A stretch of 64,000 bases of DNA. Source: Pseudomonas marvdashtae (GTDB lineage Bacteria; Pseudomonadota; Gammaproteobacteria; Pseudomonadales; Pseudomonadaceae). A program made the position numbers and the translations under genes. Shown piece after piece: positions 14,354-48,680 of the stretch; the first letter of the stretch is position 1, and every line of letters begins with the position of its first letter. The notes under the pieces are model-generated. The model did no database searches. It was not told the origin of the DNA and was given only the letters and a program-made list of their open reading frames with translations. The stretch is from assembly GCF_014268655.2 (NCBI RefSeq), contig NZ_JABWQX020000002.1, positions 62,001 to 126,000 of the forward strand, read 5' to 3'.

Positions 14354-14850
14354 GTGCGCACGCCGAACTGATGCAGGCGCGGGGCATAGTTGAAATCTTC
14401 ATCGCCGTGCCGGGAATGGTGATGACCGCCACCATAGGCGCCGTGTTCGGGCTGGAACGGCGCTTCGATGGCCTCGACGCTGGCGCCGAGTTGTTCAAGC
14501 ATTGCCTTGAGCACGTAGTCGTCCAGCAGGCGCAGCCAGCCGTCGCCCACTTGCAGCGCCACATGGCGATTACCCAGGTGGTAAGCCGCGCGGGTCAGTT
14601 CTAACGCACTGGCACAGGTGACGTGCAGCAACTGTTCAGGGCGGGCGCAGACGCGCACGATGCGCTCATCTTCGGCTTGCAAGCATTCACCGTCGTAAAG
14701 CGGCGGCTGACCTCGCTCCAAAAACAGACCCACATCTTCACCCTCGGCACTGAAACAGCGCAGACGGCTTTTACTGCGGGCATCGAAGGTCAGGTGCAAC
14801 TCGGCGTCCCAGCGCGATTGGGCGGCGATTCTGCGGTGGATCACCAGCAT
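14350..14850 (-). CDS. ureE: Urease accessory protein UreE, nickel chaperone
   Basis: A 166-residue UreE. The start at 14850 (MLVIHRR...) is the family start; the reading frame runs on upstream to 15099, but that part has no homology and contains the promoter. The C terminus is His-rich (GGGHHHSRHGDEDF), a nickel-binding tail, and the internal LGNRHVALQV carries the conserved dimer-interface nickel His. It is the first gene of the ureE-ureF-ureG-ureJ operon, about 14 kb from the structural urease genes. Confidence 0.95.
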   Translation of the reverse strand: MLVIHRRIAAQSRWDAELHLTFDARSKSRLRCFSAEGEDVGLFLERGQPPLYDGECLQAEDERIVRVCARPEQLLHVTCASALELTRAAYHLGNRHVALQVGDGWLRLLDDYVLKAMLEQLGASVEAIEAPFQPEHGAYGGGHHHSRHGDEDFNYAPRLHQFGVRT

Positions 14851-14886
14851 TGGAGTGCTTCCAGCAATGAACGATGCTGTGTTTAG

Positions 14887-14902
14887 AGCAAGGGGCTTGC
14901 CA
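14887..14902 (-). promoter_or_regulatory. Sigma-54 promoter upstream of ureEFGJ
   Basis: Read on the minus strand the site is TGGCAAGCCCCTTGCT, with one mismatch to TGGCACG-N4-TTGC(A/T). GG and GC have the required 10-base separation. The start of transcription would be near 14877, leaving a leader of about 27 bases to the ureE ATG. Confidence 0.75.
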
Positions 14903-14964
14903 ATCGAAGAGGGTGTAGGAAATATCTGGGGATGGCGTTTCAGGATGGGACGGATTGCGTGCCA

Positions 14965-14996
14965 TGTTGGTGCGTATCGCGATGGTGCGCACCATT
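14965..14996. promoter_or_regulatory. NtrC-like half-sites and palindrome upstream of ureE
   Basis: TGGTGCG occurs at 14968-14974 and again inside the perfect palindrome ATGGTGCGCACCAT at 14982-14995. TGGTGC/GCACCA are NtrC half-site sequences. The cluster is centred about 105-110 bases upstream of the predicted start, as expected for an enhancer. The half-site spacing is not the classical N5 dyad, so the protein is inferred. Confidence 0.5.
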
Positions 14997-15019
14997 TTGC
15001 GGCTGGTATAAAAAGACAT

Positions 15020-15106
15020 TGTGGCAGCGAGCCTGCTCTCGATAGCGGCGCATCATTAACATCAATGCTGACTGACCCGACGCCATCACGAGCAGGCATG
15101 CTGCTG
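15020..15106. repeat. Degenerate REPIN-like element
   Basis: GTGGCAGCGAGCCTGC near 15021 and CATCACGAGCAGGCATGC near 15083-15100 are imperfect inverted copies of a REP core. The element lies between ureE and the DUF6124-like gene. Confidence 0.45.
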
Positions 15107-15154
15107 GGTCATCTTCGCTTGGGGCGTCGGCTCAGCTTGCATCAAGACAAAGCG

Positions 15155-15538
15155 TTATCCCTTGGCGCCAGGCGCCGCCATCTCCTTAGTCTCCAGATGA
15201 TCCAATGCCCGCTCGACCAACAACTGAACTCCATCGGCCATGCGGCTGATTGCCAGGGCGATGCAGCGGCGCGATTCGTCGATGTCGTCGGCCAGGTCGG
15301 CGGCGATGGTGCTGATCGACAGCAGGTCTTCGGAGGCGTTGGCGAGCAGGGTTTCGGTGTCGATGTGCGGGGAGACGATGAAGAGCTGGTCTTTGTCGGG
15401 TTCCGGCGGAGGGGCGGGCTGGGGTTTCAGGTAGTAGTCGAGGGCGCGGTTGGTGGCGTCTTCGAGGCGTTTTTCTTCGAGTTTTTCGACGCGGGATTTG
15501 TGTTCGTTTTGCGGTGGATTTGGTGACGGCTTGAACAT
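15155..15538 (-). CDS. DUF6124-like small protein of unknown function
   Basis: A 127-residue soluble protein without signal or membrane segments. It has a charged, Pro-rich N terminus (MFKPSPNPPQ), then a predicted helical region; the C-terminal half (EDLLSISTIAADLADDIDESRR...MADGVQLLVERALDHLE) is the conserved block of a Pseudomonas family annotated as DUF6124 (related to DUF3077). The start at 15538 has GGAG at 15547-15550 on the plus coordinate. That ribosome site is perfectly complementary to a loop in the structured leader upstream, which suggests translational control. A truncated relative lies at 48049-48223. Function is unknown. Confidence 0.75.
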   Translation of the reverse strand: MFKPSPNPPQNEHKSRVEKLEEKRLEDATNRALDYYLKPQPAPPPEPDKDQLFIVSPHIDTETLLANASEDLLSISTIAADLADDIDESRRCIALAISRMADGVQLLVERALDHLETKEMAAPGAKG

Positions 15539-15540
15539 AG

Positions 15541-15700
15541 TTGTACTCCGAAATTTTTAGGAGCCAACACCGCCTCGCTTGCACAGTCGAGAGAGGTGGC
15601 AGCTATGCATAGGTGTGCAAGACCGGTCGGAGTACCCGGCAGACCCGAAGGTCTCCCATACACAGCTGCCATAACGGTCCGCGAGCATAAAAAAATGCTC
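15541..15700 (-). ncRNA. Structured leader with C4-antisense-like architecture (copy 1)
   Basis: On the minus strand a 16-base closing stem (15655-15670 with 15598-15613, three G-U pairs) encloses an AGACC-UUCG-GGUCU hairpin (15641-15654) and a CCGG/CCGG hairpin. The loop GUACUCCGA (15627-15635) is exactly complementary to UCGGAGUAC at the ribosome site of the downstream gene (15543-15551). The strand CUUGCACA (15614-15621) is exactly complementary to UGUGCAAG in the loop of a hairpin further downstream (15578-15585). A hairpin GAGCAT/ATGCTC with a U6 loop precedes it (15683-15700). The two-pair antisense layout is that of phage P1/P7 C4 RNA, which represses a downstream gene; here the target would be DUF6124. 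Structure is seen; function is inferred. Confidence 0.6.
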
Positions 15701-16017
15701 GATGAATAGCCATCGACAATTGTGTCCTCCGTCGGACTTGCACGTCCGTGTCACCGTTTTTGCGATGACGAACAGAGGTTAGCGGCGCTCGAAAGCGCTG
15801 CCTAGTTCATGAACAGCCCGGCGTGTTGAAGGAAATGTCCGAGGGTTTGGCGGGGAAAAAGCACCGAAAGATCACAGCGGTCGGCAGCTCCTACAGAAAT
15901 TGCCTAGCGGCTGCCGAAAGCTGCGATTTTTTGATTTGAATGTCTGATGGAGCGAGAGGGTTGGTCAACTCCGCCATCGCGAGCGGGCTCGCTCCCCCAG
16001 AGGAAGCATGCGGACAG
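15701..16017. other. Intergenic region upstream of the RNA leader
   Basis: About 315 bases without a gene. It must hold the promoter for the leader/DUF6124 transcript, but no clear -35/-10 pair stands out. A REP-like palindrome (ATCGCGAGCGGGCTCGCT) is at about 15977-15994, and an imperfect inverted repeat with CGGTCGGCAGC and GCGGCTGCCG surrounds 15878-15916. Confidence 0.4.
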
Positions 16018-16650
16018 TTATTCAGTACTGCCCAACCCGCGCCAGTGCTTGAGACCAATGAAGATGAATCGCAATTGCTGGGTAATCTTCGCTTGGGGGG
16101 TGAGGTGTTCGGGCAGGGCTTCGGCGGGCGGGTCGATGATGTCCGGCAACGTCGCGAAGACACTTTTGACGATGAGGTCGGCCATCACGTTCAGCCCCGC
16201 CAGGTCCAGGTGCTGCAGTTTCGGCATGAGCGCCAGGTCGGCGGTCAGGTCCGAGCTGATGTCCTCGCGCAGTCTTGCGATGGCTTGGCGTACCGGCTGT
16301 GAACCACCGTACTGCTCGCGTGCCAGGAACAGGAACTGTGACCGGTTGGCGTGGACCACGTCGAGAAAGATCCGCACCGACGCATCGATGATGCCGCCCA
16401 TCACGAATTCATTGTGGCGCACCAGCCGGATGGTCGCGCGAAAGGTCTGGCCGACTTCACTGACGAGCGCCAGGCCCAGTTGGTCCATGTCATCGAAGTG
16501 TCGATAGAACCCGGTGGGCACGATGCCCGCCGCCTTGGCGACTTCGCGCAGGCTCAGGCTGCCAAATCCCCTGCCGCACTCCATCAAATGGCGGGCTGCG
16601 TCCATCAGGGCATTTCGGGTCTGTTGTTTCTGTTCGGCGCGGGGCAGCAT
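16018..16650 (-). CDS. desT: TetR-family regulator, DesT/FabR-like
   Basis: A 210-residue TetR regulator from the ATG at 16650 (a start 12 codons upstream, at 16686, is possible; GGAAG lies about 11 bases before 16650). The helix-turn-helix is in FGSLSLREVAKAAGIVPTGFYRHF. The ligand domain contains FLFLAREQYGGS and PDIIDPPAEALPEHL. The sequence follows P. aeruginosa DesT closely as remembered; DesT senses acyl-CoA saturation and represses the desCB desaturase genes. Those genes are not adjacent here, so a paralogue with other targets is possible. Confidence 0.7.
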   Translation of the reverse strand: MLPRAEQKQQTRNALMDAARHLMECGRGFGSLSLREVAKAAGIVPTGFYRHFDDMDQLGLALVSEVGQTFRATIRLVRHNEFVMGGIIDASVRIFLDVVHANRSQFLFLAREQYGGSQPVRQAIARLREDISSDLTADLALMPKLQHLDLAGLNVMADLIVKSVFATLPDIIDPPAEALPEHLTPQAKITQQLRFIFIGLKHWRGLGSTE

Positions 16651-16760
16651 CGCAAGACTGACTTCCGAGTCATGGGAGCGATGCACTCTAGCAAATCGGC
16701 TTTGCCGTCGTCGAACGGTAGAGGAGGTTCAGGCTGGAAAACGAGGGGCTTGAAAAGTCA

Positions 16761-16790
16761 AAAGCCCGATTCAAGGAATCGGGCTTTTTT
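16761..16790. terminator. Bidirectional intrinsic terminator
   Basis: AAAGCCCGATT and AATCGGGCTTT form an 11-base stem with a 5-base loop, followed by T-rich sequence on both strands. It lies 17 bases beyond the stop codon of the minus-strand repeat-protein gene and would end that transcript. Confidence 0.9.
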
Positions 16791-16806
16791 CCGGGCCACC
16801 ATGGGC

Positions 16807-17301
16807 TCAGCTCACTGTGCTGTTGCGTTCGATCACGCGATCACCACCGCCTTCGGCGAGGGTCTGGCCTGGGGTGCGGTCGGAGCCGTCAGCCGCCAAG
16901 GTTTGGCCTGGTGTGCGGTCGGAGCCGTCAGCCGCCAAGGTTTGGCCTGGGGTGCGGTCGGAGCCGTCAGCCGCCAAGGTTTGGCCTGGAGTGCGGTCGG
17001 AGCCGTCAGCTGCCAGGGTTTGACCTTGTGGAGTGCGCGAAGAACCGTCTTCGGCGAGGGTCTGGCCGGGAGTACGGTCGGAACCGTCAGCTGCAAAGGT
17101 ATCATTCTGCTTGGTGCGGTCATAACCGTCCTCGACCAAGCCTTTTTCTTCCAGGCGGTCACGACCACCTTCGGCTACGGTTTGGCTATAGACAGACTGG
17201 CTATCCTTGACCTGGGGGGTGGCTTGTTCGGAGGCTGGCAGGGCGAAAGCCGTAGAGGCCAGCAGTGAAAGGGACAGGCTCATCAGTAATTGGCGTTTCA
17301 T
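16807..17301 (-). CDS. Secreted protein of 13-residue tandem repeats, unknown function
   Basis: A 164-residue protein. Residues 1-20 form a signal peptide (cleavage near AFA-LP). After a charged linker come about seven repeats of the type TLAADGSDRTPGQ; four central copies are identical in amino-acid sequence, one earlier copy has an extra Gln, and the last ends in GGGDRVIERN. The repeats are Asp/Gly/Thr/Arg-rich and probably disordered. The ribosome site is GAGGAG, 8 bases before the ATG. There are no cysteines or membrane anchor, so it is presumably periplasmic or exported. Similar repeat proteins occur in other pseudomonads with unclear names. Confidence 0.75.
   Translation of the reverse strand: MKRQLLMSLSLSLLASTAFALPASEQATPQVKDSQSVYSQTVAEGGRDRLEEKGLVEDGYDRTKQNDTFAADGSDRTPGQTLAEDGSSRTPQGQTLAADGSDRTPGQTLAADGSDRTPGQTLAADGSDRTPGQTLAADGSDRTPGQTLAEGGGDRVIERNSTVS
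16862..17096. repeat. 39-base tandem repeat inside the secreted repeat protein gene
   Basis: The unit containing CGGTCGGAGCCGTCAGCCG recurs every 39 bases (for example at 16877, 16916 and 16955), then becomes more diverged towards 17096. Near-identity of the central copies suggests recent expansion and a likely length polymorphism between strains. Confidence 0.85.
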
Positions 17302-28981: not shown

Positions 28982-30682
28982 TCAAAACAGAAAATACCGC
29001 TGCGCCATCGGCAGCACATCAGCCGGCTCGCACCACAACAACACCCCATCGGCCTTGACCTGATAGGTCTGCGGATCGACATCGATGTTCGGCAGGTAGT
29101 CGTTGTGGATCAGGTCAGTCTTCTGCACATCGCGGCAACCCTTTACCACGGCGATTTTCTTCTTCAGCCCTAGCTGTTCCGGCAACCCAGCCTCGGCGGC
29201 GGCCTGGCTGATGAAGGTCAGGCTGGTGGCATGCCGCGAGCCGCCAAAGCTGGCGAACATCGGCCGGTAGTGCACGGGTTGCGGCGTCGGAATCGAAGCG
29301 TTGGCGTCACCCATCAGGCTGGCGGCAATCGCCCCGCCCTTGAGAATCAGCGTCGGCTTGACACCAAAGAACGCCGGGCGCCAAAGCACCAGGTCGGCCC
29401 ATTTCCCGACTTCGACGGAGCCCACTTCATGGCTGATGCCGTGGGTGATCGCTGGGTTGATGGTGTACTTGGCGATGTAGCGCTTGATGCGGAAATTGTC
29501 GTTGCCTTCGCCATCGCCGGGCAGGGCGCCGCGTTGCTTCTTCATCTTGTCGGCGGTCTGCCAGGTGCGGGTGATGACTTCACCGACGCGGCCCATCGCC
29601 TGACTGTCGGAACTGATCATCGAGAAGGCGCCGAGGTCGTGGAGGATGTCTTCGGCGGCGATGGTTTCGCGACGGATGCGGCTTTCGGCGAAGGCCACGT
29701 CTTCGGCGATGCTCGGGTCGAGGTGATGGCAGACCATCAACATGTCCAGGTGCTCGTCGATGGTATTGCGGGTGAACGGCCGGGTCGGGTTGGTCGAACT
29801 GGGCAACACGTTAGGGAAGCCGCAAGCCTTGATGATGTCCGGCGCATGGCCGCCACCGGCGCCTTCGGTGTGGTAGGTGTGGATGGTGCGGCCCTTGAAC
29901 GCGGCCAGGGTGGTTTCGACGAAGCCGGATTCGTTGAGGGTGTCGGTGTGGATCGCCACCTGTACGTCATATTGGTCGGCGACGCTCAGGCAGTTGTCGA
30001 TGGCCGCCGGCGTGGTGCCCCAGTCTTCGTGCAGCTTGAGGCCGATGGCGCCGGCCTTGACCTGTTCGATCAATGGTTCCGGCAAGCTGGCGTTGCCCTT
30101 GCCGGTGAAACCGATGTTCATCGCGAACGCGTCGGCGGCCTGGAGCATGCGCGCCAGATGCCACGGGCCGGAGGTGCAGGTGGTGGCGTTGGTCCCGGTG
30201 GCCGGGCCCGTGCCGCCGCCGATCATGGTGGTGACGCCACTCATCAGCGCCTCTTCGATCTGCTGCGGGCAGATGAAATGGATGTGGGTGTCGATACCCC
30301 CCGCCGTGAGGATCATGCCTTCGCCGGCGATCACTTCGGTGCTGGCGCCGATGGCGATGGTCACATCGGGCTGGATGTCCGGGTTGCCGGCCTTGCCGAT
30401 GGCGGCGATGCGCCCGTCCTTGAGGCCGACATCAGCCTTGACGATGCCCCAGTGATCAATGATCAGCGCGTTGGTGATCAGCGTGTCGACGACCTCGGCG
30501 GCCAGCAGCTGGCTCTGGCCCATGCCGTCGCGAATCACTTTGCCACCGCCGAACTTCACTTCTTCGCCGTAGGTGGTGAAGTCCTTTTCCACTTCGATCC
30601 ACAGCTCGGTGTCGGCCAGACGGACCTTGTCGCCGACGGTGGGGCCGAACATGTCGGCGTAGGCTTGTCTCGAAATCTTCAT
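28982..30682 (-). CDS. ureC: Urease subunit alpha (catalytic)
   Basis: A 566-residue catalytic subunit that hydrolyses urea to ammonia and carbamate at a di-nickel centre. Nickel ligands are in [12 protein letters not shown] (HxH), the carbamylated lysine in [12 protein letters not shown], further His in [13 protein letters not shown] and [11 protein letters not shown], and the flap cysteine in MVCHHL. The start at 30682 ([18 protein letters not shown]) is the family start; the frame extends 15 codons into the REPIN upstream. It is the last gene of the urt/ure run, separated from ureB by that REPIN. Confidence 0.97.
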
Positions 30683-48033: not shown

Positions 48034-48048
48034 CCAAGGCCCTGTCGC

Positions 48049-48223
48049 TTATCTCGGATCGACCACATCCAGCGCCCGATTTGCCAACAACTGGCTCAAC
48101 TCAATCATCTGCTGGACCCCTTGCGCGATATGTCGTCGCGAGCCCTCCAGATCGAATGCGAGGTCGCTGACCATGGCTGTCCCTTCGGGAATGTTGCCCC
48201 CGTCTGAAGACGAATGAGATCTT
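48049..48223 (-). pseudogene. Remnant of a DUF6124-like gene (C-terminal part only)
   Basis: The open frame encodes TAMVSDLAFDLEGSRRHIAQ and GVQQMIELSQLLANRALDVV, clearly alignable with the C-terminal half of the intact protein at 15155 (ISTIAADLADDIDESRRCIA, MADGVQLLVERALDHLE). The N-terminal half is missing; the frame runs directly into a REPIN at 48224. With the RNA element on the far side of that REPIN, this is a broken copy of the leader-plus-gene unit. Confidence 0.65.
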
Positions 48224-48371
48224 TGTGGCGAGGGAGCTTGCTCCCGCTGGGCCGGGCTGGCGCTCCAGCGCGGAGCGGCCCTAAAACCGGACATTGCGGT
48301 GTGTCAGGAATATCGCGTCCACTTTTTTGGGGCTGCTGCGCAGCCCAGCGGGAGCAAGCTCCCTCGCCACA
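48224..48371. repeat. REPIN, GTGGCGAGGGAGC type (copy 5), extended centre
   Basis: Inverted arms of 25 bases at 48224-48248 and 48347-48371. The centre shares CTAAAACCGGACATTGCGGT with the element at 47552, showing a common recent origin. It separates the DUF6124 remnant from the C4-like RNA element. Confidence 0.9.
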
Positions 48372-48376
48372 GGGCG

Positions 48377-48451
48377 GCGGCTGTGCGCAGGTTAGTCGAC
48401 CGGGGAGTCCAGCATTACCGGCGCGCCCGAAGGCGCCCTGCGCACAACCAC
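48377..48451 (-). ncRNA. C4-antisense-like RNA element (copy 2), cut off from its target gene
   Basis: On the minus strand a 15-base closing stem (48437-48451 with 48377-48391, two G-U pairs) encloses a GCGCC-UUCG-GGCGC hairpin (48423-48436) and a CCGG/CCGG hairpin with ACUCC in its loop: the same order of parts as at 15598-15670 with almost entirely different stem sequences. The segment CGACUAA (48392-48398) is complementary to the loop of an upstream hairpin CGGG-UUUAGUCG-CCCG (48510-48525). The downstream target region was replaced by a REPIN. Confidence 0.55.
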
Positions 48452-48680
48452 CATCAAGTGCAGGGATGAAATACCTGACTGACGAAGCTTGTGAACCCGC
48501 TGAAAACCTCGGGCGACTAAACCCGATCACTGAAGGGCAGTGACGGGAATCAAGTTACCGAGGGCCTCCAAGGCGCACAAGCCGGCGGATTCTGGCGTAG
48601 TTGTAGGCAGCGACGCAAGGTGATGTAGCCTGCTGACGTAGTTCTGACAGGACAGGCTTGTAGGACGGTGCAGTTTTCTG
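48452..48680. other. Gene-free stretch upstream of the second RNA element
   Basis: About 230 bases with no gene. It contains the hairpin at 48510-48525, a second inverted pair (CACTGAAGGGCAGTG near 48528-48542) and probably the promoter of the RNA element. Nothing else was recognised. Confidence 0.4.

Follow-up and report, generated by a model that had tools for sequence, protein, structure and literature searches.

A C4 antisense RNA with a diverged leader upstream of a DUF6124 gene in Pseudomonas marvdashtae

The window, a stretch of 64,000 nucleotides from Pseudomonas marvdashtae, carries between a TetR gene and ureE a minus-strand unit in which a structured leader precedes a gene encoding a DUF6124 protein. 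The features of this unit are given below from the upstream side, with b' denoting the loop of the third C4 stem and a' the tail after it, names chosen to match the order in phage P1.

15776 to 15804, minus strand: putative weak promoter, TAGGCA - 17 nt - TAACCT, read by eye
15729 to 15782, minus strand: putative c4-a1b1 leader, with a 5' hairpin GUCAUCGCAAAAACGGUGAC and a hairpin presenting a1 (RF03163, 30.3 bits, below the gathering score of 46.7)
15737 to 15743, minus strand: a1, GUGCAAG, in a hairpin, complementary in sequence to the a' tail of C4
15724 to 15732, minus strand: b1, ACGGAGGAC, partly complementary in sequence to the b' loop of C4
15699 to 15716, minus strand: terminator-like hairpin between a1b1 and C4, then a U-run at 15689-15695
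15592 to 15676, minus strand: C4 antisense RNA, copy 1 (RF01695, 65.8 bits, cut-off 45; span as given by the model; fold z -4.95)
15627 to 15635, minus strand: b' specificity loop of C4, GUACUCCGA, exact complement of b2
15614 to 15621, minus strand: a' specificity tail of C4, CUUGCACA, exact complement of a2
15578 to 15585, minus strand: a2 target, UGUGCAAG, just 3' of C4, exact 8-nt complement of a'
15543 to 15551, minus strand: b2 target overlapping the Shine-Dalgarno sequence, UCGGAGUAC, exact 9-nt complement of b', 4 nt before the ATG
15155 to 15538, minus strand: DUF6124 gene, 127 aa, an open reading frame matching PF19619 (92.2 bits, cut-off 27), with purifying selection in relatives

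C4 RNA is known chiefly from phages P1 and P7, where two of its short regions block translation of a downstream gene after RNase P cleavage to about 77 nt. The initial annotation had described the window leader as C4-like, and all of its coordinates proved correct on the minus strand, including the two exact complementarities, of the b' loop with the ribosome site and of a' with 15578-15585, and the assignment of the downstream frame to DUF6124. Its fold was likewise reproduced, with a closing stem of 16 bp including three G-U pairs by count (17 bp in the minimum-energy fold), a UUCG hairpin and a CCGG-stem hairpin; the predicted fold has a z of -4.95, none of 200 shuffles being as stable, and the 231-nt leader as a whole has a z of -4.24. 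The label can be upgraded from C4-like to C4, as the Rfam search of the whole window gave an E-value of 1.6e-10 for C4 and placed both window copies above the curated RF01695 cut-off (65.8 and 70.5 bits against 45), and the P1 leader aligns with this one.

The c4-a1b1 match of the window (E 6.5e-6 in a local search) lies in register before C4 and aligns with the P1 immI leader, and an alignment of P1, four other loci and the window shares the 5' hairpin, the a1 hairpin and the U-run before C4. On sequence grounds, the order as in P1, the aligned leader and the c4-a1b1 match, in register but below its cut-off, make the window element a C4 proper with a diverged leader. The b1 site varies jointly with the loop and the ribosome-binding site in homologues. 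Blocks resembling the promoter were seen at L057 and, in part, at L094; since a sigma-70 scan of 14800-16800 returned no promoter, the one at 15776-15804 is kept as putative, and a stricter terminator script gave the hairpin at 15699-15716 no score. A GG near the 5' end of C4 and a conserved CC.CC near its 3' end are at most sequence hints of RNase P cleavage. Up to an E-value of 1, c4-a1b1 was the only Rfam family besides C4 to match at the locus, isrK being absent, and an ordinary riboswitch was rejected on this result, as was a local inverted-repeat artefact on the Rfam match together with the covariation described below.

The statement that the element occurs in two copies holds for the window, but the genome contains 31 C4 matches. 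The second window copy belongs to a damaged unit with the following features.

48506 to 48557, minus strand: putative c4-a1b1 leader of copy 2, in register (RF03163, 31.8 bits, below 46.7, E 3.9e-6)
48370 to 48458, minus strand: C4 antisense RNA, copy 2 (RF01695, 70.5 bits)
48067 to 48177, minus strand: truncated DUF6124 remnant downstream of copy 2, an open reading frame matching PF19619 positions 26-62 of 63 (59.4 bits)

In this unit (48040-48560, minus strand) REP-like repeats occupy the place of the a2 and b2 targets and of the first half of DUF6124, all of which are lost. By modelled pairing its C4 could act on other units, and its best predicted partner is the L055 unit, with a combined energy of -20.4 kcal/mol.

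Across the genome, 26 of the 31 C4 matches and 34 DUF6124 matches are paired, under a rule that places C4 within about 400 nt upstream of DUF6124 on the same strand (coordinates compared by hand). The five C4s without DUF6124 comprise one at a contig edge (L059), two before a family of ~89 aa (L041 and L044), one preceding an open reading frame whose start resembles, by eye, that same family (L046), and one without a clear gene (L031). An upstream C4 is lacking at eight of the 34 DUF6124 matches, one of them at a contig edge, leaving seven of 33 not at an edge, and for six of these seven our own C4 model, up to an E-value of 1, gave no upstream C4. DUF3077 was rejected as a partner family, its two adjacent matches here (one gene) lying beside none of the 31 C4s.

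Within the genus sample a C4 match was present in 184 of 199 genomes, with 20 candidates scored per genome and many genomes reaching 20, and one genome scored more fully (G160) gave 32 matches. In the class sample, with 15 candidates scored per genome, C4 was found in 18 of 274 genomes including the source genome, the others having 1 to 6 each, and DUF6124 in the source genome only (1/274); 14 control genomes had neither. The named relatives of the window DUF6124 occupy 72 loci, all in Pseudomonas, which we take to belong largely to the fluorescens group. Among 50,697 phage records a DUF6124 relative occurs in a single one, where it lies at the end of the record, and among plasmid records in none. 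In 12 of 14 tested pairs DUF6124 has a dN/dS of 0.035-0.31, and the other two pairs have no non-synonymous change.

The linkage was followed from both sides. Searching with the window DUF6124 protein gave relatives, at E-values up to 1e-20, in 61 of 199 genomes, and 130 loci (30 given, including that of the window, and 100 fetched, hand-picked from the list) were searched with a covariance model. The initial annotation had envisaged a model built from the two copies; that used here was built from 40 C4s and found a C4 in the sense direction upstream of DUF6124 at 120 of the 130 loci, that is, 119 of 129 in other genomes and the window's own, the ten without being L108, L186, L187, L189, L191, L194, L197, L201, L207 and L248. 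From the RNA side, 241 of 263 C4 loci had a start codon adjoining the site complementary to the loop, the 22 failures including evident starts missed by the script (e.g., L006 and L043). The 241 downstream proteins formed clusters of 159 around DUF6124, 32 of ~52 aa ("ALNPS"), 11 of ~89 aa and 9 of ~175 aa; one representative per cluster matched DUF6124, no Pfam family, no Pfam family and Bro-N, respectively. A profile of 19 DUF6124 proteins matches 150 of the 241, and at least four of the nine unmatched members of the DUF6124 cluster apparently have wrong-frame starts. Ninety loci chosen by C4 score alone comprised 32 ALNPS, 19 DUF6124 by profile and 5 more of the DUF6124 cluster, 9 of ~89 aa, 9 of the Bro-N cluster, 5 other and 11 without a start. 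At L003, L004, L005, L016 and similar loci C4 precedes the ~52-aa family (ALNPSKIR...), whose representative has no Pfam match; at other loci it precedes a Bro-N protein of about 175 aa. Outside the genus, 22 of 24 C4 loci had a start, and the five downstream proteins scanned gave Phage_pRha, AntA, Bro-N, P22_AR_N and one without a match, so that four of the five are of antirepressor type.

The window unit lies in a segment that differs from the same site in other genomes:

15098 to 15970, no strand assigned: additional segment of approximate extent between tetR and ureE, from comparison with other genomes

At 29 tetR loci of other genomes no DUF6124 match was found, and our own model gave no C4 apart from one fragment (13.2 bits, E 0.53) in L311; ureE lies within the stretch at 22 of them, and in all 22 genomes with a readable tetR-ureE gap the window unit is absent from it, the gap measuring 234-410 nt in 19, 845-899 nt in 3 and 1234 nt in the window. 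The nearest protein relatives sit elsewhere in their genomes: among 29 other loci (L094-L122), flank similarity was limited to two, over 79 and 105 bases. The unit seems to move as a cassette. The element had been called non-phage, which suits its TetR and UreE neighbours, but the unit is of phage-type ancestry and is missing at this site elsewhere. A 26-nt near-copy of the tetR 3' end (15102-15127) was seen at the right border of the extra segment. Two further observations in the window are a match to 5_ureB_sRNA (RF02514, 117.7 bits) at 30250-30535 on the plus strand, and a 164-aa open reading frame at 16807-17301 on the minus strand, with a signal-peptide-like start, ~14-residue repeats (QTLAADGSDRTPG) and no Pfam match.

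Both pairings covary and favour the unit's own target. For 28 of the 31 C4s of this genome (the damaged L050, the contig-edge L059 and C3:5037 being left out), predicted energies of the loop averaged -13.86 kcal/mol with the own downstream region and -8.36 kcal/mol with other copies, the own target being best in 21 of 28, and those of the tail averaged -8.56 against -5.56 kcal/mol, with the own target best in 18 and among the top three in all 28. At the upstream sites the preference was weaker, with means of -11.59 own and -9.43 others for the loop (own best in 5/28), and -8.53 and -6.29 for the tail (own best in 13/28); none of 5000 permutations reached any of the four own-target means. In G160 (30 of 32 C4s) the own target was best for the loop in 18 and for the tail in 24. 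The earlier description of the element as self-targeting is thus borne out in two genomes, in terms of predicted energies.

The same was observed in a non-redundant set of 186 own-genus loci, comprising 128 loops and 28 tails. Start codons in it were picked next to the loop-complementary site, which biases it towards pairing (of 239 own-genus loci, 20 yielded no start codon and another was excluded because its third stem was poor). Mean energies were -13.20 own against -5.97 for b2 and -8.92 own against -4.91 for a2; the own site was better than 95% of 60 others in 165 of 186 loci for b2 and 172 for a2, and, at the upstream sites, in 93 for the loop and 141 for the tail. The median number of paired bases was 10 for b and 7 for a, and the b2 stretch plus 3 nt contained a Shine-Dalgarno-like motif in 158 of 186. 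Anchoring on the Shine-Dalgarno GG was possible at 103 of the 186 loci and fixes the GG core; with Watson-Crick and G-U pairs counted, six positions beyond the core pair in 90-97% of these 103 loci against 41-59% when shuffled, with several Watson-Crick types at each and none of 1000 shuffles reaching the count at any; the position on the 3' side of the core does not covary. Compensatory change across Pseudomonas, which the initial annotation had offered as a check, is strong in both the loop/ribosome-site and the tail/a2 pairs.

Differential patterns of change were observed between the code and its scaffold. Each of the 29 C4s parsed in this genome has a loop of its own, with 10 tails among them; in G160, 30 C4s share 29 loops and form 30 distinct combinations of loop and tail. 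Among 35 DUF6124 pairs with 95-100% protein identity, some of which share members, the loops had changed in 23 and the specificity was clearly different in 20. Two neighbouring units of this genome, L053 and L054, encode identical proteins with 5 synonymous changes and are alike from the promoter to the a1 hairpin (77/85), in the two C4 halves (34/41 and 33/35) and in coding sequence (358/363), but unlike in the loop (6/17) and in the last 20 nt before the start (7/20), and b1 differs too; L120 and L182, from two genomes, show the same pattern of a changed code on a largely kept scaffold. Leader swapping is unlikely to lie behind the changed code of L053 and L054, because the promoter-a1 region, C4 halves and coding region are alike and the loop and pre-start region are not; gene conversion of their coding region is possible.

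In 74 cassette pairs with at least 90% coding identity (66 cassettes), 26 loops were identical, 36 were at most 60% identical and 12 lay between, with a mean identity of 0.91 for the scaffold and 0.71 for both the loop and the a2-b2 spacer. The loops thus often change wholesale, with compensation, but no faster than the a2-b2 spacer. Active avoidance of cross-talk is not supported by the strong non-cognate pairs in two genomes, which number 59 of 1626 when both partners come from one genome and 76 of 1680 when they come from different ones. Given that the spacer diverges as fast as the loops and that such pairs are little rarer within than between genomes, selection for private codes is at most presumed.

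The preferred reading, to which we assign a probability of about 0.85, is that the leader is a homologue of P1/P7 immI with genuine C4 targeting and silences the adjacent DUF6124 gene by dual pairing. One transcript would carry a1-b1, C4, a2-b2 and the DUF6124 gene, and C4 would be released from this precursor, with RNase P trimming expected by analogy with P1. The a' tail would then pair with a2 and the b' loop with b2, and the latter pairing would cover the Shine-Dalgarno sequence and block DUF6124 translation, while a1/b1 upstream would form a second docking site or may be a decoy. Homology to P1 and the location of b2 lead us to expect that C4 denies the ribosome access, and we infer repression of DUF6124 translation from homology and covariation; transcription, processing and action in trans of the window C4 are likewise presumed. 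The unit would spread as a cassette, and with 29 loops among 29 parsed C4s each C4 should silence chiefly its own gene.

The closest competitor is a purely cis-acting leader, in which C4 pairs with its own a2/b2 as a built-in lock and no free trans-acting RNA is made. C4 and target lie close together on one presumed transcript and cognate pairing is stronger than that with paralogues, as such a lock would have it; yet the P1 record shows c4 as a separate RNA with separate target sites (AF234172), C4 relatives of Acinetobacter baumannii are reported as abundant and apparently processed in the portion of PMC5320573 drawn on here, and a second target pair, upstream of C4, also favours the own C4. 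A strictly cis-acting lock is accordingly possible but doubtful.

Somewhat less probable still is that attenuation and sponging govern the unit, the terminator giving a short isrK-like leader RNA that binds C4 and relieves repression. Under the stricter script a terminator-like hairpin with a U-run lies between a1b1 and C4 at 74 of 263 loci, which speaks for such a leader RNA and at the same time rules out a terminator in every leader; isrK matched 14 of 18 leaders searched at E-values up to 1, six of them above cut-off, with P1 below cut-off; in Gifsy-1, the short IsrK acts in trans as an activator of translation of its own read-through transcript (as described in the part of PMC4825925 used); and for Burkholderia cenocepacia isrK and C4 appear next to each other in a list (PMC4603805, in the part used). 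Set against these, the same script found no such terminator in 29 loci of this genome (L031-L060 without L059), and the window copy, with a terminator-like hairpin by the other scan, has no isrK (RF01394) match up to an E-value of 1, whereas 6 of 17 other loci searched are above cut-off; moreover, sponging of C4 by isrK is our own proposal, the phrase "C4 RNA" being absent from PMC4825925. At L005:1386-1485, L009:1386-1485 and L016:1603-1699 (minus strand), c4-a1b1 and isrK overlap just upstream of C4, which suggests a single kind of leader comprising both IsrK and C4. The closest paralogous unit is followed by a match to TwoAYGGAY RNA (RF01731, 58.9 bits against a cut-off of 43) at L057:2156-2275 (plus strand).

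A relationship like that of type I toxin-antitoxin pairs, in which over-expressed DUF6124 harms the cell and C4 is the RNA antitoxin, would explain the private codes and is unlikely. It fits a small protein tightly linked to an antisense RNA expected to block its translation, the many copies with different codes, and the control by P1 C4 of Icd, reported in the part of PMC11897509 used as an FtsZ-dependent inhibitor of E. coli division. By alignment, however, DUF6124 is not a short hydrophobic peptide; its predicted fold, from 19 sequences, is of helices with moderate confidence (mean pLDDT 77.5, pTM 0.47), and it has no similarity to Icd. That fold had no match in BFVD at E-values up to 0.001, DUF6124 had no relative among PDB sequences up to an E-value of 1, and the literature search found no paper on it.

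It is very improbable that the leaders are functionless leftovers of P1-like prophages, for although they are homologous to P1 immI, four of five scanned non-genus downstream proteins are of antirepressor type (Rha, AntA, Bro-N, P22_AR) and window copy 2 is damaged, the pairings covary strongly, DUF6124 is under purifying selection, each of two genomes holds about 30 C4s, and a single phage record has a DUF6124 relative.

With C4 targeting of the adjacent gene as the preferred reading, we tentatively offer a wider one, on which we would not rely. About thirty largely orthogonal, phage-derived C4 channels would control small host proteins, DUF6124 and at least three further families; each unit would be a heteroimmunity group, so that arrivals and duplicates are expressed only with a code new to the cell, driving concerted switching of b1, b' and b2 while the protein and the RNA scaffold stay constant, and the terminated leader, where present, would be an isrK-type sponge opening the switch.

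These units represent a device of the P1/P7 type that is widespread in a bacterial genus, the two fuller counts giving 31 and 32 matches, almost all with codes of their own. As putative antisense repressors they form a natural set that is easy to work with experimentally; they also provide a first way into DUF6124 and a case for asking why antisense codes switch completely between near-identical duplicates, and C4 and IsrK may be linked through them as two parts of one leader. The RNA class is known, and what is new, as far as our searches go, are the target families, the copy number with private codes and the concerted switching; judged by title, none of the papers found treats Pseudomonas C4 together with its target family, and the additional files of PMC2864571 (flanking genes) may hold an earlier mention of the present targets.

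In Table 1 of PMC2864571, C4 and c4-a1b1 are listed for proteobacteria and phages as certain, non-cis-regulatory RNAs, and Weinberg et al. predicted the C4 motif in Pseudomonadales according to the part of PMC5320573 used. The c4-a1b1 family (RF03163), above cut-off in 12 of 18 Pseudomonas loci searched, is comparable in that its leader hairpins carry C4 target sites and putative counterparts lie in register ahead of both window copies; these counterparts score under the curated cut-off. The Group 1 sRNAs of Acinetobacter baumannii, as described in the same part of PMC5320573, are many C4-like RNAs per genome, abundant and with apparent RNase P-type processing; they share with the present units the number per genome and a variable a' region, but their targets are speculative there, whereas the present units have an identified neighbouring target family and a cognate code. 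The short IsrK of Salmonella Gifsy-1 (RF01394), a terminated leader, is comparable as a leader RNA before an antirepressor operon, and isrK matches several Pseudomonas C4 leaders, but it is a trans activator of the translation of its own read-through transcript (PMC4825925, in the part used), and the window copy is without an isrK match.

The closest likeness is to P1 and P7, whose C4 is a three-stem RNA with a' and b', with a2/b2 downstream, b2 near the ribosome site, a1/b1 upstream, and RNA and target gene in tandem. The P1 record (AF234172) gives the order a1, b1, c4, a2, b2, icd and notes a2/b2 for repression of icd/ant translation, and its leader is above cut-off for Rfam C4 and c4-a1b1. 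Unlike P1 immI, which targets icd/ant with b2 10 nt before the ATG, the window element faces DUF6124 with b2 4 nt before it, and, unlike the phage C4, it is chromosomal and belongs to a set of 31 matches in one genome, of which the 29 parsed have 29 loops.
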